Below, piece after piece: positions 3,042 to 19,686 of a stretch of DNA of 48,449 nt; position 1 is the first letter of the stretch, and every line of letters begins with the position of its first letter. Made by a program: the position numbers and the translations under genes. The DNA is from a virus. The DNA lies in the IMG/VR virus record IMGVR_UViG_3300020000_000001, positions 1-48,449 of that record. One strand, given 5' to 3'. The notes under the pieces were generated by a model that was not told where the DNA came from, searched no databases, and worked only from the letters and a program-made list of their open reading frames with translations.

Positions 3042-3326
3042 ATGACCAGGCCAGAATGGCTAAGTATCATAATCATGCTCGGGTCGATCCTCTTCGTCCT
3101 GATCATGATCCTCGTCTACATCCGCTTCATGTGGAACATGCAGTGCAAGCAATGGGATATGCTCTGCGCAAAGGACCTAGCCTATGACACAGAAACGAAG
3201 CTATTCATGGGGAACGTCAAGAGTCGCGAATTTGGGATACGTGAGAGAGGAATGCTGGGAGGGGAAGACACTGGTCTATTCCCGGGAAGTGGAGATGGCG
3301 GCAAACGTGGTCCCCGCCTTCGTTGA
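3042..3326 (+). CDS. Small membrane protein, C-terminal part doubtful
   Basis: A 94-residue reading frame with GGGGGAT before the ATG. Residues 6-30 (WLSIIIMLGSILFVLIMILVYIRFMW) form a clear transmembrane anchor, followed by MQCKQWDMLCAKDLAYDTETKLF. From about residue 66 the protein turns glycine-rich and simple, while the +1 frame becomes protein-like and continues to 3408. Either the two genes overlap by 143 bases or the true product shifts +1 near 3225-3240. The membrane anchor is sound; the C-terminus is not. Confidence 0.6.
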   Translation: MTRPEWLSIIIMLGSILFVLIMILVYIRFMWNMQCKQWDMLCAKDLAYDTETKLFMGNVKSREFGIRERGMLGGEDTGLFPGSGDGGKRGPRLR

Positions 3327-3408
3327 GGCCCGGCGCCGCGTCATCGCGATGCAAATGGCCGAAGCCGGCCACTCCTACACCGACAACGAGAGCGGAGGCG
3401 TCAATTGA
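3184..3408 (+). CDS. Hypothetical protein overlapping the membrane protein
   Basis: A 74-residue frame in +1 register to the previous gene. AAGGA at 3171-3175 sits eight bases before the ATG, so an independent start is plausible. From about residue 19 it reads like a normal protein (YVREECWEGKTLVYSREVEMAANVVPAFVEARRRVIAMQMAEAG), whereas the first 18 residues look like a shadow of the upstream frame. It may be a separate gene or the second half of a frameshifted one. Its stop overlaps the TTG start of the next gene. Confidence 0.55.
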   Translation: MTQKRSYSWGTSRVANLGYVREECWEGKTLVYSREVEMAANVVPAFVEARRRVIAMQMAEAGHSYTDNESGGVN

Positions 3409-3713
3409 CCACCCTCTACGACCTATCCGCCCGGCTGGACGATGCAGCAAAGCGGAACCCCGTAATCCAGCTCCATCGACTTAAGACACTCGTCTCGAGT
3501 CCGCCCTGTCTCTGTCTCGATTGCCATGAGTTCAAAAGCTATCTCGAACTCCTCGACGCAGAGGTATTTCATATCCAACTCCACACTCGCCAAGCTTGCT
3601 CAGATCGTTTTACTAAAGAACATCCTCCGAAGCCAGCCGCGCCCAAGCCTCCGTCTAAGCCATCACGAATATCAACAACAACCGACGACCTAATGACAGG
3701 ACTCGACATATGA
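3405..3713 (+). CDS. Cys-rich protein with the shared DDLM C-terminal tail
   Basis: A 102-residue protein with a TTG start that overlaps the previous TGA (TTGA); GGAGG at 3394-3398 supports this start. The centre holds a cysteine cluster (PPCLCLDCHEF) and another cysteine downstream (RQACSDRF), compatible with zinc binding. A proline-lysine linker (PPKPAAPKPPSKPSR) leads to ISTTTDDLMTGLDI, the tail shared with four other proteins. It ends on the ATG of the Sak4-like ATPase (TATGA), so the two are coupled. Function unknown. Confidence 0.7.
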   Translation: MTTLYDLSARLDDAAKRNPVIQLHRLKTLVSSPPCLCLDCHEFKSYLELLDAEVFHIQLHTRQACSDRFTKEHPPKPAAPKPPSKPSRISTTTDDLMTGLDI

Positions 3714-4669
3714 CGGATCAACTACAGCCTCCTGCTGGCCTCCTCGCCGGCCCTAGTGGCTCGGGTAAGACGGCGGCCCTCGTAACCCAGCTCGCAATGG
3801 GACTCGAAGTCTTCGTCATTGTCACCGAGCCCGACGGTGTCGCCTCCCTCCTCGATCGCTGCTTTGACTTAAAACTTCCAATCGACAAGCTGCATTGGAC
3901 CACCTGTCTCCCCGCCTCCGCCGGCTTCGACGGCCTCGAAGCCATGATCACCAGTATCTCGACCATGGATCAAAAGCAACTTGCCGATCAGCGGGATATG
4001 GGGAAGAAGGACTTCCGTGCCCCGGCCATGCGGTTTTTGAATGCGCTGAAAGATTTCCCATGCGAGCGGACTGGCCGACTTTATGGCTCCTTCACCACCT
4101 GGGACGACACCCGATCCTTAAATATCGACTCGCTGACCGGCTGGTCCCACATCGCCTGGGGCTGCACAGTGGGCTTCAAGCCGACCGCCAATCCGGGCGA
4201 GTGGGGGATCGCACAGAGCTTTATTTCCCAAATGCTTCTCAAAATCAACACCGACCGTCGATGCTACTTCAATCTCATCGCCCATGTCGAGAAAGAGATG
4301 GACGAAATGAGCGGCATCAAGCGGGTCATGGTGTCGACGATAGGTGCGAAGCTGGCGCCGAAGGTCCCGACGTTCTTCAGCGAAGTGATCCTTTGCAAGA
4401 GGCAAATCGCCTCGAACAGTCAAGCCGTCTTCACCTGGTCGACCATCGACTCCACTGCCGATCTTAAGAACCGCGCCCTTCCCATCGGCGCCACTCTCGC
4501 CCCCGATTTCAAACCAATCGTCGAGGCATATCAGCGCCGTAAGGCCATGATCAACGCCTCGAACGCAAGCAATCCTCCAGTCTACCCGAGCCAAGCAGCA
4601 CCACCGACGCCATCGCTGCCGACGGCTCCAATGAAACCGGCGTCAAGCGTAGGAGCAACTAAGCCATGA
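3710..4669 (+). CDS. Sak4-like RecA-fold ATPase, probable recombinase
   Basis: A 319-residue P-loop ATPase. Walker A is GPSGSGKT (residues 14-21); LNIDSLTGW (D140) is the Walker B-like strand. The pattern and length match the Sak4 type of phage RecA-like proteins, which load on single-stranded DNA and promote annealing or strand exchange together with a dedicated SSB. The last 45 residues are a proline and alanine-rich disordered tail. It overlaps the next gene, a probable SSB, by four bases, which is the usual partner arrangement. Together with the RecB-like nuclease at 1555 it would form a recombination or replication-repair set. Confidence 0.8.
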   Translation: MTDQLQPPAGLLAGPSGSGKTAALVTQLAMGLEVFVIVTEPDGVASLLDRCFDLKLPIDKLHWTTCLPASAGFDGLEAMITSISTMDQKQLADQRDMGKKDFRAPAMRFLNALKDFPCERTGRLYGSFTTWDDTRSLNIDSLTGWSHIAWGCTVGFKPTANPGEWGIAQSFISQMLLKINTDRRCYFNLIAHVEKEMDEMSGIKRVMVSTIGAKLAPKVPTFFSEVILCKRQIASNSQAVFTWSTIDSTADLKNRALPIGATLAPDFKPIVEAYQRRKAMINASNASNPPVYPSQAAPPTPSLPTAPMKPASSVGATKP

Positions 4670-5163
4670 GTAAGTTCGACCCCGACGACTTCATGCAGCA
4701 GACGATCGACGCCCCGATCTCTGACGACTACATCCTGTGTCCGGAGGGCGAATTCGAGGCACGGATCGACGACTTTGACTCGAAGATCTTCCGAACGAAT
4801 GAGTTCGTCTACAAGCAGGGTCCAAGCGAAGGTCTTCCGGGCGAAATGACGACCTTCAATTGCCCCTGGGTCATCAACGACGACCGCGCCAAGCAGGTCC
4901 TCAACCGGGACAAGGTCATCGTCTTCCAGCCGATCATCCTCGACTTCGACGACAACGGCAAGCTTGACCTTGGCATCAACAAGAACGTCAATCTCGGCCG
5001 CATCCGTACCGCTGTGGGTCAGAAGGACATGCTTCCGTGGGGTATCTCGAAGCTCCGCGGCCAGGGTCCCTGCATGGTCCGCGTTGTTCACAAGGACATC
5101 AAGCGGAAGGACGGCTCGATGATCAAGGTTGCGGAGGTGAACAGGGTCGTCCCGATTAAGTAA
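4666..5163 (+). CDS. Probable single-strand DNA-binding-like partner of Sak4
   Basis: A 165-residue protein beginning MSKFDPDDFMQQTI and continuing with a long beta-rich region (CPEGEFEARIDDF, KVIVFQPIILDFDDNGKL). Proteins of this kind are commonly encoded directly after Sak4/RecA-like ATPases in phages and are thought to be OB-fold single-strand DNA-binding proteins. The assignment rests on that neighbourhood and on the N-terminal pattern, not on a diagnostic motif. The C-terminus is basic-hydrophobic (NRVVPIK), unlike the acidic tip of bacterial SSB. A two-hairpin leader separates it from the next gene. Confidence 0.6.
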   Translation: MSKFDPDDFMQQTIDAPISDDYILCPEGEFEARIDDFDSKIFRTNEFVYKQGPSEGLPGEMTTFNCPWVINDDRAKQVLNRDKVIVFQPIILDFDDNGKLDLGINKNVNLGRIRTAVGQKDMLPWGISKLRGQGPCMVRVVHKDIKRKDGSMIKVAEVNRVVPIK

Positions 5164-5173
5164 GACACTGTAT

Positions 5174-5210
5174 CTCAAGGTAGCTCAGGGTATGGTCCCT
5201 CATCCTTGAG
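5174..5210 (+). other. Intergenic stem-loop 1 after the SSB-like gene
   Basis: CTCAAGG (5174-5180) pairs with CCTTGAG (5204-5210). Inside, AGGG (5187-5190) pairs with CCCT (5197-5200) around a six-base loop. It starts 10 bases after the stop of the SSB-like gene. The sequence that follows is GC-rich with no T-tract, so it is not a classic terminator. Confidence 0.6.
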
Positions 5211-5217
5211 CCGCACG

Positions 5218-5258
5218 GGGGACGCTGTAGCCATCCGATGCCCGCGTTACGGCGTCCC
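5218..5258 (+). other. Intergenic stem-loop 2 before the 5286 gene
   Basis: GGGACGC (5218-5224) pairs exactly with GCGTCCC (5252-5258), and GTA/TAC (5226-5228 with 5248-5250) extends the stem. It lies just upstream of the ribosome binding site AGGAG (5275-5279). In position it resembles the repeated GGGG/CCCC element found elsewhere, but the sequence differs. Confidence 0.55.
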
Positions 5259-5285
5259 TCAATCTTCCTCTCACAGGAGCACCAC

Positions 5286-5576
5286 ATGGCTGAAGCATAT
5301 AATAATCGTATAAGCGGCGCCGGCTCGCCAGTCGATCCCCGTCCTGGTTCTTCTCTCGACAGCCTTATCTCCAAACTCGGAGGCGCTTGCAGCGCAATCG
5401 TCCACCTAACCGCCCGCGTCGAGCAACTCGCCAACACAACCATGGGCGAAGCGACTTCCGATCGACCGCCAGCCCAGGTGAAGATCGACCATCCACCTTG
5501 CACCTTGCAAGAGCACATGGCTTATCTCGAAGACAACATCTCCCGTCTCGAGGCCCAGATCCAGAGGTTCTTCTAA
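5286..5576 (+). CDS. Hypothetical protein with a C-terminal coiled coil
   Basis: A 96-residue protein; AGGAG six bases before the ATG at 5286 fixes the start. The N-terminal third is polar and probably disordered (NNRISGAGSPVDPRPGSS). The middle is helical (LDSLISKLGGACSAIVHLTARVEQLAN). The end is a short heptad-like helix (MAYLEDNISRLEAQIQRFF). Its TAA overlaps the ATG of the ParB-methyltransferase, so it may be co-produced with it. No family recognised. Confidence 0.65.
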   Translation: MAEAYNNRISGAGSPVDPRPGSSLDSLISKLGGACSAIVHLTARVEQLANTTMGEATSDRPPAQVKIDHPPCTLQEHMAYLEDNISRLEAQIQRFF

Positions 5577-6910
5577 TGCACTTCGTAGCCCTTAAAGACA
5601 TTGAAGTCCGCGATCGTCAGCGGAAGGAAATCGATCCGACGAAACTCAATGAACTCGAATCTTCAATCTTGTCCGTAGGGCTACTCCATCCTCCCGCCTG
5701 TTGGTGGGATATAGACGTGGCCAAGTGGGTTCTTATGGTCGGCGAGACACGCCTCCGTGCCATACAGAACATTGCGAAGAAGAACCTCGTCTTCAAACAT
5801 GCCAGCGAGGACGTACCTCCCGGCTCCATCCCCATCAACCCGATCAACTATCTCAATGAAATGGGCCGCTTCGAGGCCGAGCTGGACGAGAATCTGCGCC
5901 GCGACGACCTGCCCTGGCAGGACAAGTGCGAGGCCCTGTCTAAGCTGCACATAATGCGGCGGAGAGAGAATCCCTCTCAAACCTTCATGGATACGGGGAA
6001 GGAGGTAATGGACAAGATCGGCATCACACATCCCCGTGCCGCCCTGAGGACTATCAGCGAGGCAGTTATCGTCGCCGAGCACCTCAACGACCCGACCATC
6101 AAACAGGCCCGGACGCAGAACGAAGCCCTCCAACTCATATACAAGAAGCAAGAAGAGAAGGCAATCGCCGCCCTCGTCAAACGCAACCTCATCAACCTGC
6201 GGGACCCAAATGGCACGCCTCTGGAGATACGAAACGGCGATCTTACCGTCGTCATGCCCGGTCTTGAGACGTCAATTGCTGACCTCATCATCGCTGACCC
6301 ACCTTATGGGATTGGGGCAGGTGGCGCAGGCTTCAGGGCCCGAACTGTACACCACCACAACTACGAGGATACTATGGAGAACGCGCAGTTATTGGCTCAG
6401 ACAATTCTCACCGAGGGATTTCGTATATGCAAGCCAAGGGCAAATATTTTCATCTTCTGCGACATAGAACTGTTCGACTGGCTGAAGGACGTAGCCAGCA
6501 ACATGGCGTGGGTGCCATTTAAGCGTCCTTTAATCTGGCGGAAGAGTGAGAGCGAGGGAATGGCGCCGTGGGGCGGCTCTGGTCCCCGCATAACAACGGA
6601 GTTTATCTTCTATGCGACCAAAGGACAAAGAGGTATGGTCTCGTCGCCGATCGACGTCTTCGACGTTAAGCGCGTTCCACGCAACGAGCGACTACATGCC
6701 GCAGAGAAACCCGTTGAGCTACTTAAGCAGCTCATCGCTTGTACCACGTTGCCTGGCGATCTTGTTCTCGATCCTTGTTGTGGTTCTGGCTCTGCTCTTG
6801 TCGCTTGCAAAGAAAGCGGTCGAAGAGGGCTTGGAATCGAGCGAGACACAGACTACTACAACACAGCTCTGACAAACATCAGCAAGGCGCCGGTGAAGAA
6901 TGAGACATGA
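5576..6910 (+). CDS. ParB-like domain fused to an N6/N4 DNA methyltransferase
   Basis: A 444-residue two-domain protein; the ATG overlaps the upstream TAA. Residues 1-90 are a ParB/Srx-type domain (VALKDIEVRDRQRKEID ... GETRLRAI, residues 56-63). The C-terminal half is an adenine or N4-cytosine methyltransferase: catalytic DPPY at 241-244, then the SAM-binding motif DPCCGSG at 399-405, the beta-class order. Such fusions are common in phages and often protect phage DNA from host restriction. The ParB part may locate the substrate or hydrolyse nucleotides. No recognition site can be read from sequence. Confidence 0.9.
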   Translation: MHFVALKDIEVRDRQRKEIDPTKLNELESSILSVGLLHPPACWWDIDVAKWVLMVGETRLRAIQNIAKKNLVFKHASEDVPPGSIPINPINYLNEMGRFEAELDENLRRDDLPWQDKCEALSKLHIMRRRENPSQTFMDTGKEVMDKIGITHPRAALRTISEAVIVAEHLNDPTIKQARTQNEALQLIYKKQEEKAIAALVKRNLINLRDPNGTPLEIRNGDLTVVMPGLETSIADLIIADPPYGIGAGGAGFRARTVHHHNYEDTMENAQLLAQTILTEGFRICKPRANIFIFCDIELFDWLKDVASNMAWVPFKRPLIWRKSESEGMAPWGGSGPRITTEFIFYATKGQRGMVSSPIDVFDVKRVPRNERLHAAEKPVELLKQLIACTTLPGDLVLDPCCGSGSALVACKESGRRGLGIERDTDYYNTALTNISKAPVKNET

Positions 6911-8702
6911 TCTCTTCTACGGCACCCGCGGTCCCCGAGACGCGAAGGTCGTGATCGTAGGAGAGTCTTGGGGGGCTGAAGAAGCCAGTGCACAGACAGC
7001 CATGGTTGGTACGTCTGGTACTGAACTGAACCGGATGCTTGCCGACGCCCGGATCGATCAATCCGACGTATTGTTCACCAATATGGTAGCGGAGAAGCCA
7101 CATGCCAACGAGACTTGGAGGTTCTTCGAACCTAAAGCCACTAAACCCCGTACAATTGACCGCCTTGCGCCTTCTCCTTCGACTTGCGACGAGATTAGCC
7201 GTCTTTACTCTCAGATTACATCTCACCCTCGTGACGTGGTCATTGCGGCGGGCAACTGGCCATTCTGGGCTCTTTCATCTAAGAGTGGCGTGGAGGTTCT
7301 CCGCACATCGAATAACCGAGCGATCCCTGTGGACGATCAAAGGCATGTCCCAACCGGAATAACGAGCCACCGCGGCTCAATGTGGTATTGTGAGTTCAAA
7401 CGCGAACTATACGAACCAGGATACTATGACCCCCATGTACCGACCAATATACCTCTACTCCCCATTATCCACCCCGCGGCGATCCAACGTGCGTGGTACC
7501 AGCGACCAGTCACGGTACACGATCTTAAAGCTCGCGTTCCGATGGCAAGAAAGCATGACTGGAGGCCAATCGGGGTCCAAGCCATCCATACTCCCTCCTT
7601 TTCCGACGTCGTGGACCAGCTCCGTCTGTGGCTGGCATCCGCTGACGACCTTCTCCGACTCAATGGCACCCTGCGACTGGCCTGCGATATCGAAACTCTG
7701 CGCCGCCGCTTTATCTCCGTCGTGGGATTTAGTTGTGGAGCGAGACAAGCGATTGCCATTCCGTTCATCAAATGTGACACAGCCGATGGAGCTTTTGAAC
7801 CTTATTGGTCCGTGGCCCATGAGGCCATCATTATTGGACTTATTCGACGAATTCTTCTTCACCCGGCGATACTGATCGAGGGACAGAACTTCATCTACGA
7901 CACACAATTCTTCCAATACGAAATGGGCGTAACGCCGACTGTCGACTTCGATACCATGATCGCCCAGAACACTCTCTTCCCCGGCACACCGAAGGCACTC
8001 GAATACCTCGCCTCCCTCTACTGCGACTACTATTGGTATTGGAAGGAGGATGCGAAAGACTGGAATACGGCAGGCAACATTCGCCAACTATGCGAATACA
8101 ATAATCTCGATTGTATGTGGACGTATGAATGCGCGGGGACCTTGCGTATGCTCGTCCAGCAAATGAACCAGCAGCCGCAATACGACTTCAAAATGCGCAT
8201 CAACGATCTCTGCCTCCGTATGATGAACCGAGGGATCAATGTTGACAAGACCTTACGTAATAAACTCAAAACTGATCTTAACGAGGTCTTGCTCGAGTTC
8301 TATACTGAACTGGAGCAGATCGTGCCCCAAGACATGGTCGAGCCGGGCCATAAAACCCGCTGGTACAAATCCGACAAACAGACTAAGAAGCTATTCTACG
8401 ACATCTTTAATATGCGGATCGTCCGACACTCGAAGACGGGTAAGCCAACATCCGGTAAACAAGCCCTCATGCAGCTTAAGAGGTGGTACCCGGAATTTAC
8501 AGGTCTCTTCAATCGTCTCGATTACGCCGGGTCAGTTGAGAATACGTGTCAGGTCGTCGCAACACCATTGGAGTCTAGTGGCCGTATCCAGTGCTCCTTT
8601 AATCCGGCAGGCACAGAGACACACAGGCTATCTAGTTCGGAAAATGCCTTCGGTCGTGGGACGAATTTTCAGAACCTCACAAGAGGAGAGGAAGACCAAT
8701 GA
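6900..8702 (+). CDS. Family A DNA polymerase, N-terminal part: UDG-like plus 3'-5' exonuclease plus start of polymerase domain
   Basis: A 600-residue protein. Residues 1-210 resemble uracil-DNA glycosylases (KVVIVGESWGAEEA ... LLPIIHPAAI), a fusion also known at the N-terminus of some phage polymerases. Next is a DnaQ-type proofreading exonuclease with all three motifs: CDIETL (D263, E265), NFIYD (D334) and YNNLD (Y400, D404). The rest is the start of a Pol I-type domain, reaching TETHRLSSS ... NFQNL and stopping just before motif A. Motifs A, B and C are encoded separately at 9888-10658, so this is one subunit of a split polymerase. It overlaps the methyltransferase by 11 bases. Confidence 0.9.
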   Translation: MRHDLFYGTRGPRDAKVVIVGESWGAEEASAQTAMVGTSGTELNRMLADARIDQSDVLFTNMVAEKPHANETWRFFEPKATKPRTIDRLAPSPSTCDEISRLYSQITSHPRDVVIAAGNWPFWALSSKSGVEVLRTSNNRAIPVDDQRHVPTGITSHRGSMWYCEFKRELYEPGYYDPHVPTNIPLLPIIHPAAIQRAWYQRPVTVHDLKARVPMARKHDWRPIGVQAIHTPSFSDVVDQLRLWLASADDLLRLNGTLRLACDIETLRRRFISVVGFSCGARQAIAIPFIKCDTADGAFEPYWSVAHEAIIIGLIRRILLHPAILIEGQNFIYDTQFFQYEMGVTPTVDFDTMIAQNTLFPGTPKALEYLASLYCDYYWYWKEDAKDWNTAGNIRQLCEYNNLDCMWTYECAGTLRMLVQQMNQQPQYDFKMRINDLCLRMMNRGINVDKTLRNKLKTDLNEVLLEFYTELEQIVPQDMVEPGHKTRWYKSDKQTKKLFYDIFNMRIVRHSKTGKPTSGKQALMQLKRWYPEFTGLFNRLDYAGSVENTCQVVATPLESSGRIQCSFNPAGTETHRLSSSENAFGRGTNFQNLTRGEEDQ

Positions 8703-9016
8703 AGGAAAAATACGTTGAAGCCGTCGCCAGCCTCCTAACAGCCGAGGCAGCAAAGACCGGCCTTCTCATCGAGGCAGGCTGGGCTGGCTACGCTCTGTCT
8801 CTCTCAAAGGGTGCGTCACAGGAGCAAATCGACGAGACGAAGATGGCATTCTTCGCCGGCGCCGATCACCTTTACTCCTCCATCATGAACACCCTCGATC
8901 CTGGGGTGGAGGAGACAGCCGATGACATGAAGAAGATGGAGCAAATACACAACGAACTCGGACGATTTCGCGAGCGGCTTAAACTCCGCTTCGCAAAGAC
9001 AAAGGGGCGAGCATGA
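8699..9016 (+). CDS. Hypothetical helical protein between the polymerase halves
   Basis: A 105-residue, mostly helical protein starting at an ATGA overlap with the first polymerase part; AAGAGGAG at 8681-8688 lies 10 bases before the ATG. The segment MAFFAGADHLYSSIMNTLDPG followed by MEQIHNELGRFRERLKLRF is typical of a small protein found in many phage early regions, of unknown function. No nuclease or maturase motif is visible, so it gives no hint of how the polymerase came to be split. Confidence 0.7.
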   Translation: MKEKYVEAVASLLTAEAAKTGLLIEAGWAGYALSLSKGASQEQIDETKMAFFAGADHLYSSIMNTLDPGVEETADDMKKMEQIHNELGRFRERLKLRFAKTKGRA

Positions 9017-9201
9017 TCTGGCTTAGACGAATATTCACCTGCTGGTGGGGAGGATGTGGAGGACGCGTATACGAGACGACCTGCACCTATCCCGACTGCA
9101 TGAGCGAGTCCATGCTAACCCATCCATCGTGTCACGAGGACTGCAATACACAGGCCCCGTTCTGGCGATGTAGTTATTGTGGAAGGACAAGCGATGACTG
9201 A
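9013..9201 (+). CDS. Small cysteine-rich protein
   Basis: A 62-residue protein starting with an ATGA overlap. It has nine cysteines, ending in CSYCGRTSDD, and also CTYPDC and CHEDC. This is consistent with one or two zinc sites. The N-terminus (MIWLRRIFTCWWGG) is hydrophobic but too short for a secure membrane segment. It overlaps the next gene by eight bases. Function unknown. Confidence 0.55.
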   Translation: MIWLRRIFTCWWGGCGGRVYETTCTYPDCMSESMLTHPSCHEDCNTQAPFWRCSYCGRTSDD

Positions 9202-9622
9202 TCAAGACAGAGGACATAAGAAGATTCTCGTCGTCGATTTCGACGGCGTGCTAAACAGCTATACGAGCGGCTGGGTCAGTGCAACCTTCATCCCCGATCC
9301 GCCGGTCGACGGAGCGATGGAGTGGTTATGGCAGATGTCGAGAGAGTTCAACCTGCAAATCTTCTCCTCTCGTAGCAAGGAAGACGGCGGGATCAAGGCC
9401 ATGTCAGACTACATCGGGTATTGGGCGAAGAAGATACTCGGTAACGCCGAGCCCGAATACAGGGCCAACGCCGTCATCAACCGAATCTGCAACGACCCAG
9501 CGGCGTGGCCAACACAGAAGCCCGCCGCCTTCGTCACTCTCGACGACCGAGCCATTTGCTTCACAGGTAAATGGCCCACACTCGACGAACTAAAGGGCTT
9601 CAAGCCCTGGAACAAAAGATGA
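9194..9622 (+). CDS. HAD-superfamily phosphatase-like protein
   Basis: A 142-residue protein; GGAAGGA at 9181-9187 selects the ATG at 9194 over an in-frame upstream start at 9179. The HAD motif I, DFDGV (D15, D17), follows a hydrophobic strand (KILVV). SSRS in the middle could be motif II, and TLDDRA near the C-terminus supplies the acidic motif IV. The size and pattern fit small phage HAD hydrolases, which remove phosphates from nucleotides or DNA ends. The substrate cannot be told. It lies between the polymerase halves, so a nucleotide or end-processing role is plausible. Confidence 0.8.
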   Translation: MTDQDRGHKKILVVDFDGVLNSYTSGWVSATFIPDPPVDGAMEWLWQMSREFNLQIFSSRSKEDGGIKAMSDYIGYWAKKILGNAEPEYRANAVINRICNDPAAWPTQKPAAFVTLDDRAICFTGKWPTLDELKGFKPWNKR

Positions 9623-9882
9623 GGAATATCCTCGCTCACATTCTCGACGAGAACGGGAGGCCGAGCAAGAAGCTCATTCCGCCCCGTTCCGTTGGCATGA
9701 TCATGGTCGAGGCTTGGACGGGAGTGGATGTCTGTTCAAGCTACGACCTGGTCAAAAGATGCCTCTTTGTCGTGAACCTACCCTATCACCATAATCAACC
9801 CATTTGGCTCTTCAACGGGGGCCTCGAAAACCAGTGGGTCCAGCATGGAGACGTAGTCGGCGTCACTAATAACAGGGGATAA
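9619..9882 (+). CDS. Hypothetical protein before the polymerase C-terminal part
   Basis: An 87-residue protein whose ATG overlaps the stop of the HAD gene (ATGA). It contains beta-like stretches (VGMIMVEAWTGVDV, KRCLFVVNLPYHH, PIWLFNGGLENQWVQHGDVVGV) and no known motif. The stop at 9880-9882 is five bases before the ATG of the polymerase C-terminal part, whose ribosome binding site (AGGGGAT) lies inside this gene's end. Confidence 0.6.
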   Translation: MRNILAHILDENGRPSKKLIPPRSVGMIMVEAWTGVDVCSSYDLVKRCLFVVNLPYHHNQPIWLFNGGLENQWVQHGDVVGVTNNRG

Positions 9883-9887
9883 GAACA

Positions 9888-10658
9888 ATGCCAACAACCG
9901 CATGGTTGAGTCAAGAGGAGCGTCTGCCAAATGTACGTAAAATTCTCATCCCCGATCCGGGATACGTCTGGTTCGAGGGCGACCTAAAAGGCGCCGACGC
10001 ACAAGTCGTCGCATGGGAGGCAGAAGATGAAGACCTTAAAGCCGCTTTCCGAGCCGGCATCGACATTCATGTCAAAAACGCTGAAGATATGTGGGGAAAA
10101 GAGTTCACGTGCCTTCCTACAAACTCTCACGCGAGAGATGCAAAGAGGCAGGAATGCAAGCATACAGTCCACGGGTGTAACTATGGTTGTACGCCTCGAA
10201 CCACTGCCATCCAGCGCGGGTGGACAGTGCATGAAGCTGAGCGTTTTCACAATCGCTGGTTCTCTCTTCACCCAGGCATCAAGAAGAATTTCCATTCCAA
10301 GATTGAGCGCTGGCTTCAAAAGAACAATACGGTCCAGAACGCGTTCGGCTACAAGAGGATCTTCTTCGATCGCCCCGACAACAATTTCACCGAAGCCCTA
10401 GCTTGGATACCCCAATCGACGGTAGCTTTTAATAGCTTCTTCGGCTTCTTCCAGCTTGAGGAGCTGTATCCTGAAGTCGAGCCACTGCTGCAGAACCACG
10501 ACTCGATGTGTTGGCAGTGGAAGAAAGAACTCATCCCCGCCAACGACAACATCCGCAAGGCCCTCCTCGTTAAAACGCCATACGACGATCCGCTCTATAT
10601 CCCATGGGATTTGAAGTCGAGTGAGAAGAGCTGGGGGGATATGCAGAAGTGTGCCTAG
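9888..10658 (+). CDS. Family A DNA polymerase, C-terminal catalytic part
   Basis: A 256-residue protein carrying the catalytic motifs of a Pol I-type polymerase. Motif A is FEGDLKGADAQVVAW (D32). The O-helix is RDAKRQECKHTVHGCNYG (K91, Y99, G100). Motif C is LLQNHDS (H204, D205). It begins with LPNVRKILIPDPGYVW, the sequence that normally follows the T-x-T-x-RLSSS ... NFQNL region with which the upstream part ends, so nothing essential seems missing. It has its own ribosome binding site and ATG. The two parts together are about 856 residues, a normal length. The active enzyme would have to assemble from both. Confidence 0.9.
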   Translation: MPTTAWLSQEERLPNVRKILIPDPGYVWFEGDLKGADAQVVAWEAEDEDLKAAFRAGIDIHVKNAEDMWGKEFTCLPTNSHARDAKRQECKHTVHGCNYGCTPRTTAIQRGWTVHEAERFHNRWFSLHPGIKKNFHSKIERWLQKNNTVQNAFGYKRIFFDRPDNNFTEALAWIPQSTVAFNSFFGFFQLEELYPEVEPLLQNHDSMCWQWKKELIPANDNIRKALLVKTPYDDPLYIPWDLKSSEKSWGDMQKCA

Positions 10659-12112: not shown

Positions 12113-15100
12113 CTATCTTACTCGCCGAACGTCAACGGTTGACTCAGGAAATAGCCGATCGATCTCACGGCTTATGGGCACATTGCGCCTTTGAGTCGGC
12201 ACCCCCCGCTCTCGAGCTATCAGCTCCCTTTCGCGACCTTGGATGGACGATCGAGCATTTTGTTCTGTAATCGTATAGCCCTTAGCAATCTGCGGAAGCT
12301 CTCTATTGTAACGCCGAATTGAATCGAGGACATCATTGATTTCGGCAGTATTGCCACCCTTCCGCGCCTCGAATAGCTGACCAAATAAGGTCTTCTGCTG
12401 CATCTCGTAGAATTTCTCCACCTCCGCCTTCGCCATAATGGAGTCCCATTTCGACTGCACCCGGAGGGCCTGATACCCCGTCGCCATAGCAAGCAACTCC
12501 CCGGCCTGTTCGGGGTCACGCCAATTAAACGAGGCAATAGTTGGGGCACTGTCTGGCCCGCCCCTACTCCTCTCTCGTCCCTCGCTGAATGCCCTCCACG
12601 TCCTCGTCATATCCGCTAACTGTCGAGGAATAGCACGTTCCCATCGTTTCGGGTCAGTCCCTTCGAGTTTATTGTCCAAGATAGCCTTGACCATATTGAA
12701 CCCCACGGAAAATACTGCACCCGAGGCGCGTTGACTCTGCTCAGCAATGACCCTGTTGGGGTCATCTGTAGTGTCGAAGAGCTTGCCGAGCTCAACAGGC
12801 AAGATCGGCCCGAGAGTGATGGCTTTGTGCCGATCGAGAACCGGGAACGGAACATTTTGCCCTGCCACCTTACCATCGAACCCTCGCCCAGGGGTTCCGG
12901 TGACGAAACTGCCCATAAGATCGAGTAGAGCGGGTATCCCATATCCTTGCCTCGCTAGGCCACCTAAGACCATATCTGGCGGAATCTTGCCATCGAAATG
13001 ACTAAGAATAAAGTCCCTCACCGCATGATCCACGTTCCAGTCTTTGCCGAAGAACCGATGCCCAACCATCTTAAGGATTTCTTTAAGATCGTCGAAGCCC
13101 GGTATCCCCGCCATCCCGCCCATGAGGGCAGCCATGACTAAGTAGCGCGGCAGGACGTCCGATTTATTATTCCCCAACATGAACAGCGTAGATTGCATAT
13201 AGAGCTTGAAGACAAAGATCGTCCCAGCAAGCCTTCCTCGCATAAACCGGGGTCTCGCCCATCGAGCATATTGAAACTGCGTCTGATTAGTGACATAGGA
13301 GGCGGTGATAATAGCCGCCGCCTGCGCGTCATTTCCGAGGCGCGATTTAAGCTCGTCGTATTCGCCTCTGTTCGCATTGATAGCCTCCTTAACGATCGGA
13401 GCATTCGGCTTATCCAAGGCCAGATTAAGACCAGCCCTATATGCTATCCGGCGGTTCCATTGCTCCGCCATTTCGAACATCCAGGCGCTCTTCTCCATAA
13501 ACGCCTGCCAGCCCTGCTGAGCCCGGTTCCCACCGAGCCCCTTCATCAGATTCATACCCTGTGAGGCCGCAGCCAGCTCCGACGCCTGCGACTCAGTAAT
13601 GATGCCTTTCTGAATTCCATAACTCATCGCCACAGTATCGAACGAGGCGCCGCCCTTACTTATCGCCGCGCTATAAGTCCCCCGCTTATAGAACGTCGAC
13701 AGCTGGCCCATCGCCTTCGCCATCGCTCTCGTCGCCGACACATCCCCAAACTTCGCAGCCAGATAGGGGAACGTGATCATCGGCGTCTGTGTGAGATTCT
13801 GCGTGGCGGCAGCAGGAACGTATCCCATGGCCCAGAGGAAAATACCCCCCTTAACTGCTCCGAAATCTCCCTTAGCCTCGAGGACGGTATTTTTAAGGTG
13901 GTCGGACATAAAGTCGGCAATTTTGTGAGCGTTATTCCCACCGACCAACCTTGCGGCCCGGATGTCGTCATTAAGTTCCCACGAATGCCTCGACCGTGCA
14001 TAGTACCTCCCAAGATGGAAGAAGTATCTTGCGAAGGATCGCTGGAAGTCAAAGCTATACCCCTTCGTATAGTTCTGTTTGAAGGCCTTCGGGAACTTCG
14101 TCGCCGTGGAGTGATTATACATAAGATTCTCAAGCGCATCAATCTGTGATGGCGTGAGATTCAGCTTGTCCCGAATTTCTTCCAACAACATCGGCGGAAG
14201 TCCGATGAACGGCGATGCTGCCTCAGGGAGTATCCCCACGTCCGGGTCCGGATATCCCGGAAACTGCTTCCGAAGGTCATCCACACGCGTCTGCTGCTGC
14301 CGCTCAGCACTCTTAAATCCAACCCGTTCGAAAGTTTCGAAATGGACGGTATTGCCGGCGGCGTCCTTCTGTATGACATAATGCCTCCCGAACCGCATGA
14401 AGGGGAAGAACGGTCTCGACATCATCGATTGGGTTCGAATATTAATCTCGTCGATCTTATTCGCGAGCTTCACGGGGTCCGTGATCACCCGCATTGCCGT
14501 CTGCATCGCGCTCTGACTTACGAGCTTAAGTACCTCATCATTCAGGACCTTAATCTTCCGAAATACCTCAAGCCCTTCCTTACTCAACTGATGCTTCGCG
14601 ACCAGCGCCTGCTGTTCCATCTGATTCGGATGCCGGACAACACCTCTTGCCTTCTCCTGCGGAGTCATGAAGTCGAGATTGACCAAATCATTGATGAAGG
14701 CAGTGAGATTCTCGCCCTGAGTCCCAAGTGCCTTCCAATCCTTCCGCACACGTATCGCGGCGTCGTGAATTTGCGTCTCGTCCAGTTGCATCCTCTTCAT
14801 CCGCTCAACATATCGGATCAGCGGGGCGAAGAACGGATTGGCCTGAGCGAGTTGCTCGAGCCCGGCCATATATTTGTAGAACCGATTAATCCGCGATGCG
14901 TGGACGGCGGACGAGGCGGGACCCGGCGATCCTGGAGCCCCCATCGCAGCTGCCGCTCTCATCGTATCCGCCGCCGGACTCCGCTCGGGAATAAACATAT
15001 CCGGCTCTTCCGCCGCCACCGCCCTCTGATCCGTCTTGACCAGATTGCTGTCTAGCTCGAGATACTGCGGATGCCCGAAACCAGCCTGCGTGGTAAGGAA

Positions 15101-18100
15101 GGAATTCAGCCAATCTGTCATCGGCTCGCTGGCGGTGAATGAGAGGCCACCGAACAGAGCCTGCGCATACGTCATCAGCGCCTTGAGCATGTCCGCAATG
15201 CCCTTCAGCGCCCGATCTACAATCGACAGAGGCTGTTCGTCTGTTGTCGCCCAGCGACTAACCTGATCCGCGAACCATTCGTCGAACCCAACCCAATACT
15301 CCCGCTCCGCCTGTGGGAGCGCATTCCAGTCCTTCTGTCTAAATCCTTCCTTCGTATACAGAGCATAGACCGAGGACATCCTCAGCCCCATCTTCTCCGT
15401 AAACCCACGAACTTGCTGCGCATCGGACAAAAACTTATCATACGCCCCCCGGATCGCGAGTTTGGTTGATGTGGGAAGAGCGTCGAAATGCTCATCCATC
15501 ACCGCATGTCCGAATTCATGGGTCAGGACGCCCCAGAGGAACGTAGCCGCCCTCGCCCCCGCAATATCCGCCGGCATATCGAATCGCGAAAGATCGACCT
15601 CAATTGTATGCGTCCGGGTTTTGGGAATATAAATATGCGTTGCGAGCGATGCGAGGCCGCCCGGCGCCTTCGCCATCTGTGCGGGCGTCCCATGAATGGC
15701 GAAGTTGATCTTTCCCTTAAAATTGAACCTCTTCGCAAACTGTTCCAAAACATCCCCAAACTTCAACGCCGCCCTATGCGACGTAGAGCGAGCTTCAGGC
15801 GGAATATTACGTAAATCGGTCGTTTCGAAGACCTCGAATTGCGGGCTCTTCGGCTGTACCTCGGCCGGCTCCATCGTCGGGTCGGCCATAAACCGTGGCA
15901 TACCCTGGCTCTGGAAATTCCACTGCGCCCGCCGATCGAACTCAATATATCCGACCTGATTGGAATACTTTAGACTATTCGCATCAGTCAATACACCTCT
16001 CTTCTTCAATATATCGATATATGAAATAGCCTCCGTACTGGTCTTGAAGCTATTTGGCAGGGCACTCCTCTGGTCTGGACCAGTAAAGAAGTTCTTAAAT
16101 CCCTGTGTCGGAGCATAGTTCAGCTCATTCCCCTCCCACCTTCCCATCCCCCATCCCGTAACAACGCCATTCGCAACGAAGGGCCTCGCAATCCACGGAC
16201 CATACTGGCTCGCCCGGATATTCGTTACGCCAAAGTCGCCGCCATACTGCCTCGCAAGATCGCGGGCCACCTTCGGGACAATCTCACCATAATACTTCTG
16301 CATTCCCTTATACTGTTTCGCCCTCTCCGGATCGACATTCGGATCAGTCGTAGCAGTGCCGTTATTTCCTGCTGAATACTGGAACGCAAGGTCGGGATTG
16401 CTCCATGTAATTCGTTGAATCCCCTTATCCGCCGCCCATCTTATGATACGACGTAGTAATAGCCTAGTCCAGTCTTCCGTCAACTTATACGGGGCGTCAG
16501 CTACTGCCTGCTGCAATATCTTATCGTGTTGGACGTTTTTGAAGAGAGCTTTTGAATACTCGAGAAATGCGTCGTGCGCCTTATCGCCCCAAGTCGTCCG
16601 GACATTCTCCAACGTCTGAATAACAACTTGAGCATCTTTCGCCGCGATCGCATTTCGGAGCCTATGATCATAGAATGTCACCGCATCAAGACTGCTCTTA
16701 CCAATACCAATAAGCTCTTCGAAGTTAAGAAATGCGACGTCTTGAGCAAGCTGCAGAGCATCTGTCTCTTTAATCAATTTCTCAGACAAATAGCCCAACT
16801 TCCTACCCGCCTGAAGCCAGTCGGTCTGAAACTCCTCCACATGCGCAACAAGCTGACCGGAGTAATCCTCACGAAGGGTGATGCGGCCGTGAGCTATGGT
16901 ATTCTCGTAGACTTTCTGTTCTTGACCATTAACTCTCGTCGTCTCGCCAAAATGCGGCGGCGTATAGCCTCTCGCCCGCCGAATATCCTCCTCATCCACA
17001 TATCCCGTATTATTGATGAGCGCATCAACCGCCCTCTCATTAAACGGGACCTGAATGGCGATAGTCGCATAGCCGCGCCGCTCGCCAGGAGCGGTGTATT
17101 CACCGTACTCCACAACTGGCTTCCTAATAGCATCCCTCAACGTAGCCCGAAGACCGTTCAACCTCTCTTGATTTCGATTCCATTCTTCAAGTAGAGGCTG
17201 TCGGACCGTAACCCAATTCGTCGAAATAGGGATATTATCGAGCTGCGTATTCAGCTCCTGATTACGCAGCCAGAGGGTTGCGACTTCCTGTCTCGCCTCC
17301 TCCTCCCTCGGAAGCAACTTATTCGACGTATCATCACGAATGACCTCCTTCAACTTATACTGATTATCGCGGAGGTGATTGATGACATCTTGCTTCGTAA
17401 TTCGCGGCGCCGAAGCCGTCGCTCTCGCCGCATCGCCCTTCGCCTTCTGTAATTCCTGCCTCTCCTGCTGTACAGCCTGAAGCATGTCTTGAGACGGCTT
17501 TTGACCAGGATTTTCCTGCTTCCACTGAACCAACGCCGCCTGGGCTCCTTGGCTCGGGGCGTCGAGATCGTGTTGGGTCGGCTGGATGTTCGCTCCATGT
17601 GCAGAGAAGAAGTCATCAAGCCCCGTCCACGTTAATTCATCGAGCTTAACACCACGATTGACAAGTATTCCCCGCATGTCCTGCGCCGAGGCAGACTCGG
17701 GCAAATACTGCTGCGCAACCTGCTCCGCCTTCGAATACCAAAGAGGCCCCGGACCCTGCTTTTCAGCCTCCGGTTCTACCGCTGCCGCCGCCCTTGTTGT
17801 CGGGATTTGGGAGGTAAAGTTCCCACCCTCCGGCGACAGAGTAGCCGGGGTGTCCAGAGAAGTATTCTCCGGCCTCGTAACTATCTCCCTCAACAGCCCG
17901 AGCTGCTGAGGATTGAAGTCCTGCCCTGGCTTTAGCTCCTCGAACGCTTGTATGATTTGCTCGGGGGTTGGCGGCTCCTTCTTTGTCGACGAAGGGGCCT
18001 CCTTGCTCACTCCGGCAGCGACAGCCCCAAACGGCCCTCCAACCAGAGCACCCCCGAGCGCATTCTCCAATATATCCCACGCTTGACTCTCCGTGAATCC

Positions 18101-18937
18101 CTTTACCCCAGTTTCCTTATTGATAAGGCCAGCCTTTACTGCCTCCTGAGCACCCTCCGTAACGCCTTCCGCAGCCGCACTCTTACCAGCTTCAATCGCA
18201 ATTCTCTTGATAAGACCTTGTTTGACGAGCTCCTTCCCACCAGTAGCAAGCAACTTCCCACCGGGTATAAGGCCAGCCATATCAAGTCCCGACATGATTG
18301 GAAGGACCATGGCCGACAGCTTCGCCGCACGCGTCGGCTCAACACCCGCCGCTTTGAGGTCTTGGAAGACTTCACCGTAGTTTGGAGCCGCGCTGCCAGC
18401 GAATGCACCAATACCCGCTCCAATTGGGCCACCAACGGCATAGCCGGCAACTCCCGCGGCAATCGGAGCCGCCGTCGAAGCAGCGCCCGTGCCAAACGTC
18501 TCCCCTGCCCAGGTCGCCGCATCGCCGAACCCCTTTATATCCCGTAATTTCGGGGCGATGAGCTGATAATCCTCTGGCGTCTTGACATCTTTAAGATAAT
18601 TCGCCCCAGTCTGTAATGGTTCTTTGAAATGGTCTGGGGCAAGAAGCGAAAGCCCCTCTAACGTCTGGCCATAGAGCTGGGGCTGTTGCTGGCCAATTCC
18701 CGTAACAATACCTCTCGTGACAGAATAGTGATCTTGCGGCTGAGACGTATTGAATACCTGATCGTCGGTCAGTCCCGCAGGAGTGGACGCAGAGGCACTC
18801 GCCGGCGGCGAAGTAGATTGAGGGCCAAACACATCGGCGTCAGACATTCCACCCACACCACTAGTCGCCGGAGCTATAGTGGGGACAGGAGCGGACTGTG
18901 CATCATTGCCGAATACTTCTGCGTCCGTAAAACTCAT
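12113..18937 (-). CDS. Giant ejection/polyvalent virion protein with zincin metallopeptidase motif
   Basis: About 2,274 residues from the ATG at 18937, chosen because it overlaps the upstream stop (ATGA); an in-frame ATG at 18964 is possible. The N-terminus repeats a short D-(A/D)-x-V-F motif three times. Residues roughly 150-200 are glycine/alanine-rich and hydrophobic (AGYAVGGPIGAGIGAFAG). Around 695-712, EEFQTDWLQAGRKLGY, and near 880, GMQKYYGEIVPK, mark a domain found in large polyvalent phage proteins. HEFGH at 1140-1144 with a later FDEWFAD is a zincin protease signature. The C-terminus resembles other giant podovirus virion proteins. It is probably packaged and injected with the DNA. 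I see no RNA polymerase motifs. Confidence 0.85.
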   Translation of the reverse strand: MSFTDAEVFGNDAQSAPVPTIAPATSGVGGMSDADVFGPQSTSPPASASASTPAGLTDDQVFNTSQPQDHYSVTRGIVTGIGQQQPQLYGQTLEGLSLLAPDHFKEPLQTGANYLKDVKTPEDYQLIAPKLRDIKGFGDAATWAGETFGTGAASTAAPIAAGVAGYAVGGPIGAGIGAFAGSAAPNYGEVFQDLKAAGVEPTRAAKLSAMVLPIMSGLDMAGLIPGGKLLATGGKELVKQGLIKRIAIEAGKSAAAEGVTEGAQEAVKAGLINKETGVKGFTESQAWDILENALGGALVGGPFGAVAAGVSKEAPSSTKKEPPTPEQIIQAFEELKPGQDFNPQQLGLLREIVTRPENTSLDTPATLSPEGGNFTSQIPTTRAAAAVEPEAEKQGPGPLWYSKAEQVAQQYLPESASAQDMRGILVNRGVKLDELTWTGLDDFFSAHGANIQPTQHDLDAPSQGAQAALVQWKQENPGQKPSQDMLQAVQQERQELQKAKGDAARATASAPRITKQDVINHLRDNQYKLKEVIRDDTSNKLLPREEEARQEVATLWLRNQELNTQLDNIPISTNWVTVRQPLLEEWNRNQERLNGLRATLRDAIRKPVVEYGEYTAPGERRGYATIAIQVPFNERAVDALINNTGYVDEEDIRRARGYTPPHFGETTRVNGQEQKVYENTIAHGRITLREDYSGQLVAHVEEFQTDWLQAGRKLGYLSEKLIKETDALQLAQDVAFLNFEELIGIGKSSLDAVTFYDHRLRNAIAAKDAQVVIQTLENVRTTWGDKAHDAFLEYSKALFKNVQHDKILQQAVADAPYKLTEDWTRLLLRRIIRWAADKGIQRITWSNPDLAFQYSAGNNGTATTDPNVDPERAKQYKGMQKYYGEIVPKVARDLARQYGGDFGVTNIRASQYGPWIARPFVANGVVTGWGMGRWEGNELNYAPTQGFKNFFTGPDQRSALPNSFKTSTEAISYIDILKKRGVLTDANSLKYSNQVGYIEFDRRAQWNFQSQGMPRFMADPTMEPAEVQPKSPQFEVFETTDLRNIPPEARSTSHRAALKFGDVLEQFAKRFNFKGKINFAIHGTPAQMAKAPGGLASLATHIYIPKTRTHTIEVDLSRFDMPADIAGARAATFLWGVLTHEFGHAVMDEHFDALPTSTKLAIRGAYDKFLSDAQQVRGFTEKMGLRMSSVYALYTKEGFRQKDWNALPQAEREYWVGFDEWFADQVSRWATTDEQPLSIVDRALKGIADMLKALMTYAQALFGGLSFTASEPMTDWLNSFLTTQAGFGHPQYLELDSNLVKTDQRAVAAEEPDMFIPERSPAADTMRAAAAMGAPGSPGPASSAVHASRINRFYKYMAGLEQLAQANPFFAPLIRYVERMKRMQLDETQIHDAAIRVRKDWKALGTQGENLTAFINDLVNLDFMTPQEKARGVVRHPNQMEQQALVAKHQLSKEGLEVFRKIKVLNDEVLKLVSQSAMQTAMRVITDPVKLANKIDEINIRTQSMMSRPFFPFMRFGRHYVIQKDAAGNTVHFETFERVGFKSAERQQQTRVDDLRKQFPGYPDPDVGILPEAASPFIGLPPMLLEEIRDKLNLTPSQIDALENLMYNHSTATKFPKAFKQNYTKGYSFDFQRSFARYFFHLGRYYARSRHSWELNDDIRAARLVGGNNAHKIADFMSDHLKNTVLEAKGDFGAVKGGIFLWAMGYVPAAATQNLTQTPMITFPYLAAKFGDVSATRAMAKAMGQLSTFYKRGTYSAAISKGGASFDTVAMSYGIQKGIITESQASELAAASQGMNLMKGLGGNRAQQGWQAFMEKSAWMFEMAEQWNRRIAYRAGLNLALDKPNAPIVKEAINANRGEYDELKSRLGNDAQAAAIITASYVTNQTQFQYARWARPRFMRGRLAGTIFVFKLYMQSTLFMLGNNKSDVLPRYLVMAALMGGMAGIPGFDDLKEILKMVGHRFFGKDWNVDHAVRDFILSHFDGKIPPDMVLGGLARQGYGIPALLDLMGSFVTGTPGRGFDGKVAGQNVPFPVLDRHKAITLGPILPVELGKLFDTTDDPNRVIAEQSQRASGAVFSVGFNMVKAILDNKLEGTDPKRWERAIPRQLADMTRTWRAFSEGRERSRGGPDSAPTIASFNWRDPEQAGELLAMATGYQALRVQSKWDSIMAKAEVEKFYEMQQKTLFGQLFEARKGGNTAEINDVLDSIRRYNRELPQIAKGYTITEQNARSSIQGRERELIARERGVPTQRRNVPISREIDRLFPESTVDVRRVR

Positions 18938-19686
18938 GGAGCTACCCACATCTGCCCGGTCCATTTAAGCGGACCTTTTGGCGTCGAATACACCGTTCCG
19001 GGCGTTCGGAGCTTAGGATCACGCGGCGCATCAGTTGTTCCCGCAACAGCGGGAGCCGCCCCGCCCGGCAATATGTCGCCAGTGTCCCCCTGATCACCAC
19101 CTCCGCCCGGCGCGGCTGCTGGAGGCAAGAGACCAAGCTGATTGATGAGCGGATTGTTCCGAGCCCACGTATCCATATCCAGAACAGGCGCCTTCGGAGC
19201 CATCGGCGAACCCGGCGGCTTAAGAACATCGTTGTTCTGCTTATCAACAACGGCATTCGCGGCGTTCGTATTTCGGACATAGTTCTGATACATGGCCGAA
19301 AGTCGGATACGAGCTGACTGATCGGCTCGTAGTCTCTTCCCTTCCTCAATCGCGCCAGTGAGCGACGACCTCGTAGCAGCAGTATTGGCTCGAGCCTCGG
19401 CCGCCCCGGCCTGACTCGCCCTCAACTCGCTCTTCGAATCAATCTCCTGTTGCTTCTGTTCCTGTGCGGTCTGCGCGTTCATTGCCTCACCAGCCCCGCC
19501 AACACCTTTGGCGAACTGGACAGTTCCGCCTCCCCACTGCGGAATCATCGCATTGGTTCCGAAAGCGAGAAGAGCACTTAACATCTTCGGATCAGCCATG
19601 AAGCTGCTAACCGCACCCTGTGCCTGCGGGTCCGGCGTCACCCCAGTCATGGGACCGGGGGAGAAGTAGTCAATCGGACTAGCCAT
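18934..19686 (-). CDS. Internal virion protein
   Basis: A 250-residue protein; GGGGAGG just before the ATG at 19686 favours this start over the GTG at 19692. The first 75 residues are Gly, Pro and Ala-rich with helical hydrophobic parts (MLSALLAFGTNAMIPQWGGGTVQFAKGVGGAGEAMNAQ). Next is a long helix (AQEQKQQEIDSKSELRASQAGAAEARANTAATRS) and then a Pro/Gly-rich C-terminal half. This make-up, and its place between capsid-tail genes and the giant protein, is typical of podovirus internal or ejection proteins. No enzymatic motif. Confidence 0.7.
   Translation of the reverse strand: MASPIDYFSPGPMTGVTPDPQAQGAVSSFMADPKMLSALLAFGTNAMIPQWGGGTVQFAKGVGGAGEAMNAQTAQEQKQQEIDSKSELRASQAGAAEARANTAATRSSLTGAIEEGKRLRADQSARIRLSAMYQNYVRNTNAANAVVDKQNNDVLKPPGSPMAPKAPVLDMDTWARNNPLINQLGLLPPAAAPGGGGDQGDTGDILPGGAAPAVAGTTDAPRDPKLRTPGTVYSTPKGPLKWTGQMWVAP

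Follow-up and report, generated by a model that had tools for sequence, protein, structure and literature searches.

The window analysed here, the whole of virus record IMGVR_UViG_3300020000_000001 (48,449 bases), carries a family A DNA polymerase divided between two genes with four complete genes in between, as an earlier note made from its letters had described. The best reading of the locus, supported by the observations below, is that the window encodes this polymerase as two chains. We consider it probable that the gene has undergone recurrent fission by stop/start coupling, that genes were inserted into the junction later, and that the two products form a heterodimeric polymerase serving as the phage replicase.

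The two polymerase genes

The coordinates of the two polymerase genes, the genes between them and the two ribosome-binding regions are collected in Table 1. The N half matches the Pfam families UDG (E 6.5e-11) and DNA_pol_A_exo1 (1.6e-8) and, with 20 bits and thus under the curated cut-off, positions 11-125 of the DNA_pol_A profile PF00476 (E 3.6e-4), in agreement with the UDG-like, exonuclease and palm-proximal regions recognized earlier. The C half, to which motifs A to C had been assigned, covers positions 136-287 of the same profile (E 2.1e-16; 60.3 bits, cut-off 34.3). No other match to PF00476 was found in the record. When the PHROG DNA polymerase profile phrog_17 (1445 positions) was used, positions 477-989 were matched by the N half and 996-1233 by the C half. 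Because this coverage is near-continuous, the cut is nearly seamless, and the claim that nothing is missing there was borne out both by this profile and by comparison with unsplit relatives. The single-polypeptide form, usual in family A but not strictly defining, was not found, the two open reading frames (ORFs) having their own starts and stops and four genes between them. The exonuclease residues D263, E265, D334 and D404 of the N half are invariant in a five-row alignment, and all three loose exonuclease patterns are present in the window. In the C half the catalytic aspartates D32 (motif A) and D205 (motif C) are invariant across 49 C halves.

Table 1. Polymerase genes, junction elements and intervening genes of the window
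Feature	Position	Strand	Description
Polymerase N half	6900..8702	+	600 amino acids (aa); UDG-like domain, 3'-5' exonuclease, thumb, first palm strands; C-terminus NFQNLTRGEEDQ, then stop
Shine-Dalgarno-like AGAGGAGAGGA in last codons of N half, then ATGA start/stop overlap with gap gene 1	8682..8702	+	anti-Shine-Dalgarno duplex -9.1 kcal/mol
Gap gene 1	8699..9016	+	105 aa; no Pfam or PHROG match
Gap gene 2	9013..9201	+	62 aa, Cys-rich; no Pfam or PHROG match
Gap gene 3	9194..9622	+	HAD-type phosphatase-like; phrog_23773 E 7.4e-23, phrog_1238 E 9.1e-10
Gap gene 4	9619..9882	+	87 aa; apparent dUTPase relic, catalytic motifs lost
AGGGGAT Shine-Dalgarno-like sequence and ATG start of C half	9874..9890	+	-6.5 kcal/mol
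Polymerase C half	9888..10658	+	256 aa; palm and fingers; motif A (DLKGAD), motif B region, motif C (HDS)

Relatives were studied in a sample of 252 fetched loci and the window, in which 240 loci hold both halves. Left out by hand were L006 and L007 (weak matches to one-chain polymerases), L008 (the window's own copy), L014, L015 and L016; L035, L051, L098, L099, L105, L108 and L199 were left out because one half is lacking. An earlier, first count had excluded seven near-copies by name and 13 others (repeat fetches, L008, or L099, which is without a C half). At 95% C-half identity the sample forms 158 clusters, of which 59 are split and 99 unsplit, none of them mixing the two states, and all split ones are cut at the same loop. 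Three large scans contributed the best 80 of 348, of 377 and of 238 confirmed matches, and 59:99 is the ratio in this sample, not in nature.

The ratio of nonsynonymous to synonymous substitution (dN/dS) was 0.086-0.155 in the 8 of 18 half-comparisons with computable dS, the other comparisons being saturated. Between the window and L001 it was 0.131 for the N half, whereas the C half was saturated (dN 0.163). In the computable comparisons both halves are under purifying selection. Together with the retention of the split in 59 of 158 clusters, this agrees with the earlier proposal that a working polymerase is made from two chains, and the N and C chains would then assemble into one polymerase. 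It could be argued instead that the phage uses a host polymerase and that its C half, in which motif C reads HDS, not HDE, is either a relic or works on its own in some other function. However, HDS prevails throughout the family (in 55 of the 59 split clusters and 93 of the 99 unsplit ones), the motif A pattern is kept in 58 and HD[SAGTE] in all of the 59 split C halves, both halves are under purifying selection, and the gene order methylase - polymerase - DUF3987 in the window is that of the unsplit relative Mel-JY34; we regard this explanation as very improbable. HDS was also considered as a mark of the split and ruled out, being equally common in unsplit relatives.

Position of the cut and the stop/start junction

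In unsplit relatives NLQNIP is followed by a variable loop and then by LPNIRKLF. Split proteins stop a few residues past NLQN and restart just ahead of LPNxRK, which places the cut site in this surface loop; the C half of the window starts roughly 12 residues upstream of LPN. When a profile built from 27 unsplit proteins was aligned with Bst Pol I, the loop fell between the NLQNIP and IRQAF segments of that enzyme. For the fused relative L027, structure prediction (predicted local distance difference test, pLDDT, 88.1; predicted template modelling score, pTM, 0.87) gave the loop block 571-580 a mean of 54, the lowest of the polymerase region. The window's C half, modelled alone with AlphaFold, reached a pLDDT of 95.7 and is predicted to fold on its own. 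Residues 15-253 of the model superimpose on residues 635-876 of Bst Pol I (Z 23.6, root-mean-square deviation 2.1 A, 228 aligned), and only polymerases were found among the 50 structure matches listed; a Klenow-like palm with fingers is thus predicted. The alignment to Bst Pol I, taken with the position of the loop, indicates that the cut runs through the palm. Both catalytic aspartates fall to the C chain; palm strands stay with the N chain, as does the HRLSS...NFQN segment. By analogy with what is generally known of family A structures, neither chain would be expected to work alone.

Each half has a start of its own, as noted earlier. The N half ends 5-8 residues past NLQN in 56 of the 59 split representatives, and in 53 an ATG or GTG in another frame lies between -8 and +3 nucleotides (nt) from the stop of the N half. 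Where N halves end, their KG[DE]E codons often spell a Shine-Dalgarno (SD)-like sequence. The median anti-SD energy after NLQN was -8.3 in 44 split loci versus -5.4 at the corresponding position in 37 unsplit ones (three unsplit rows without the motif pattern were dropped), and values of -7 or lower were found in 31 of 44 versus 10 of 37. The loop may be prone to fission because a near-SD sequence was already present in it, and this sequence may be the cause of the fission.

In the mechanism that we favour, the gene would have been divided at a flexible surface loop whose KG[DE]E codons act as an SD-like sequence, so that two coupled genes could result at once from a stop close to it that overlaps a start (ATGA, TAATG or TAGTG). 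One polycistronic message would encode the N chain (UDG-like domain, exonuclease, thumb, first palm strands and HRLSS...NLQN) and the C chain (palm, fingers and catalytic aspartates), which would assemble non-covalently with a composite active site. Several phage lineages would have undergone this fission, and at least one of them (L027) probably reversed it. Other genes could then have landed at the stop/start junction: a dUTPase, once, in the window's clade, a ribonucleotide reductase (RNR) in the sister clade, and small genes in other lineages. The window's dUTPase would since have decayed, and three more genes been added.

A different reading takes the halves as exons and the gap as an intron or an intein-like element removed from RNA or protein. 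Group I introns do occur in phage polymerase genes, the authors describing the split PolA of phage MEP401 raised an intron in the available part of their paper (PMC10580990), and the gap of split locus L058 contains an HNH_3 gene. Yet at gathering score Rfam matched neither the window nor any of the 58 other split representatives, and it gave nothing up to E 1 in positions 8500-10100 of the window; an intron ribozyme in the gap of relatives, which the earlier note had named as evidence that would overturn the split, was thus not found by Rfam in any of the 59. Moreover, 12 of the 59 have no gene-sized gap, the gap genes are ordinary (dUTPase, RNR), and N halves ending so soon after NLQN leave an intein half no room. 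None of the four gap products of the window matches a homing-endonuclease family in Pfam or PHROG, as had been noted. Intron, intein and homing-endonuclease readings were rejected on the absence of an Rfam match, of room for an intein and of an endonuclease in the window's gap, and little credence can be given to removal of the gap.

At locus L242 (5001-6626) an intein-like insert was seen within the C half, at AWVPQ^STVA, with Cys as its first residue and GN as its last, before Ser.

Distribution and order of events

Comparison with unsplit relatives, proposed earlier as a way to time the split, found it scattered over the trees. An 84-row tree requires 11 changes of the split state, no fewer than 8 of which are forced by starred (well-supported) branches; the 158-row tree requires 12, with at least 7 forced. 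If only fissions are allowed the counts are 13 and 15, and with a split root and fusions only, 20 and 24. A single split clade was rejected by the approximately unbiased (AU) test (p 1.8e-41; 36 rows, chosen after the tree was seen). The window's clade comprises 30 rows, 29 of them split. L086 is split inside an unsplit clade, with path lengths of about 0.5 to L075 and L093. The distribution suggests that the split is old and recurrent, not peculiar to the window phage, and that the same fission apparently arose in several lineages.

These data bear on the possibility of a single ancient fission followed by many re-fusions, with a polymerase that would still be two-chained. Several early-branching lineages are split, L027 is unsplit within a split clade, and most N halves end at a nearly identical point, all of which would fit. 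But an ancient fission costs at least 20 changes compared with 13-15 for fission only and 11-12 unordered, L086 is split among unsplit rows (69% identical to L075), and all four outgroup rows are unsplit, which makes the single origin unlikely. The exception in the window's clade, L027 (unsplit polymerase at 3252-5717), is the best candidate for a possible re-fusion.

The gap ranges from -8 to 2899 nt in the 59 split representatives; in 12 it is at most 43 nt, with no gene between the halves, and in 47 at least 78 nt. A base error could create gapless cases, so that a frameshift or assembly artefact might be suspected, but the 47 longer gaps, many with complete genes, and the recurrence of the split in 59 clusters and in the isolate Vibrio phage vB_VspS_VS-ABTNL-3 make the chance of this negligible. 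L187 is gapless, while L163 (77% identical, same flanks) has one small gene between two ATGA overlaps at the same junction; L184, outside this pair and more distant, is also gapless. Two gapless loci and one with a single insert favour fission as the first event and gene insertion as the second.

Several observations weigh against recurrent fission driven by SD-like codons and against a two-chain enzyme. The SD excess is mostly a matter of amino-acid composition, to which synonymous codon choice contributes a little (mean z -0.64 in split, -0.04 in unsplit loci), and the last codons ahead of any phage gene may carry an SD sequence anyway. L039 has none at the junction (+0.4), and those of L002, L003 and L029 are weak. 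At least one loose exonuclease pattern is absent from 16 of 54 long N halves, and the correlation between N- and C-half identity is slightly lower in split (r 0.73) than in unsplit pairs (r 0.81). Parsimony also leaves room for the single ancient fission, at the 20 and 24 changes given above. As unsplit, split without insert, one-gene and several-gene forms coexist, the order fission then insertion and the role of the internal SD sequence are directly testable.

Gap genes and known systems

The four gap genes had been described as joined by coupled overlaps. The genes and the first four junctions agree with this (overlapping stop/start ATGA, ATGA, ATGACTGA and ATGA), but the C half begins 5 nt past the last gap gene, without overlap. 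Gap gene 3 was searched against PHROG from a GTG start at 9179, the alternative start at 9194 being that of the earlier note. Its product looks like a HAD-type phosphatase, with DFDGV near the N terminus, which we take to be the motif of such enzymes; L002 has a homologue at 1804-2184, upstream of its polymerase. Gap gene 4 is similar to the gap dUTPases of L002 and L003 (tblastn, E 5e-8 and 9e-11), and SRSGLA, GVIDPDY and GFGSTG are missing when it is aligned to dUTPases. It has no Pfam dUTPase match, its similarity being only to intact gap dUTPases, and on this alignment it is best described as a degenerate dUTPase, a decayed relic. The nature of these two products and the HDS form of motif C had been missed by the earlier note. 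A complete dUTPase was looked for elsewhere in the window and none was found.

Counting the window's relic, a dUTPase match was present in the gap of 20 of the 44 split loci of the first set, every one of them from the subclade that holds the window (23 split rows plus L027). L005, L019 and L026 belong there too and have no dUTPase; L005 probably lost the gene yet stayed split. An RNR was found in the gap of three loci of the sister clade. Pfam was run on 42 gap proteins, chosen from 62 listed and some missed by the ORF picker, and gave dUTPase in 13, RNR barrel in 3, methyltransferase in 2 and single cases of Lon_C, HNH_3, SNase and others; the HNH_3 case, in L058, belongs to a lineage outside the window's clade. 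One might imagine the loop as a fission hotspot, owing to the SD sequence written by KG[DE]E, where captured dUTPase or RNR would be co-translated with both polymerase chains, bridge the replisome and clean or supply nucleotides at the active site. In a comparable arrangement, a dUTPase is encoded within the pol gene of some retroviruses. We consider this scheme a long shot.

A search for phage DNA nearly identical to the window gave no match. Split phage PolA is already in print, Methylophilales phages MEP401 and MEP402 (Zobellviridae) being the one clear precedent found: in the available passages of that paper, PolA is encoded, as in the window, by two ORFs; a small unknown ORF separates them, and most group I relatives are also split (PMC10580990). 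The MEP401 cut is later, after IKTLFLSRYGE and before motif A, whereas that of the window precedes LPNVRK. Those passages name no UDG-like domain, do not decide between intron and split, and make no mention of repeated origins or of coupling (PMC10580990). No paper on repeated fission at this loop was found in full-text literature searches, most subscription papers being outside their reach. Vibrio phage VS-ABTNL-3 (MF497422), annotated with two proteins, is cut in the same loop around one 555-nt gene and has a methyltransferase upstream and, by eye, a homologue of the window's DUF3987 protein downstream; its gap protein is unrelated in sequence to those of the window, and the two phages are far apart on both trees. 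Microcystis phage Mel-JY34 (PP438425) and ctMlz233 (MW202489) have a homologous UDG-exonuclease-polymerase with a methylase upstream but, unlike the window, as one chain. From its description in the available part of the source, DNA polymerase I (gp205) of Pseudomonas phage PaBG has the same order of UDG, exonuclease and polymerase in one protein (PMC7412058). The replicase gene of Pseudomonas phage MIJ3 also occupies two ORFs, but PolB is of family B and, according to the part of the paper available, is interrupted by an intein that carries an HNH endonuclease (PMC6892783).

Split-enzyme tools would gain useful scaffolds from family A polymerases that are naturally two-chained. The short C half may be taken by a gene caller for a truncated polymerase. 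Divisions elsewhere in the gene were also seen: the polymerase of Caulobacter phage Kuura (L012, 3971-7375) is broken within the exonuclease region around two small genes, and that of MW202554 (L014, 1727-4364) lies in two coding sequences, the exonuclease on one and the thumb on the other, separated by a short interval. The window also has a very long minus-strand ORF of 2283 aa (12113-18964), located downstream of its replication genes.

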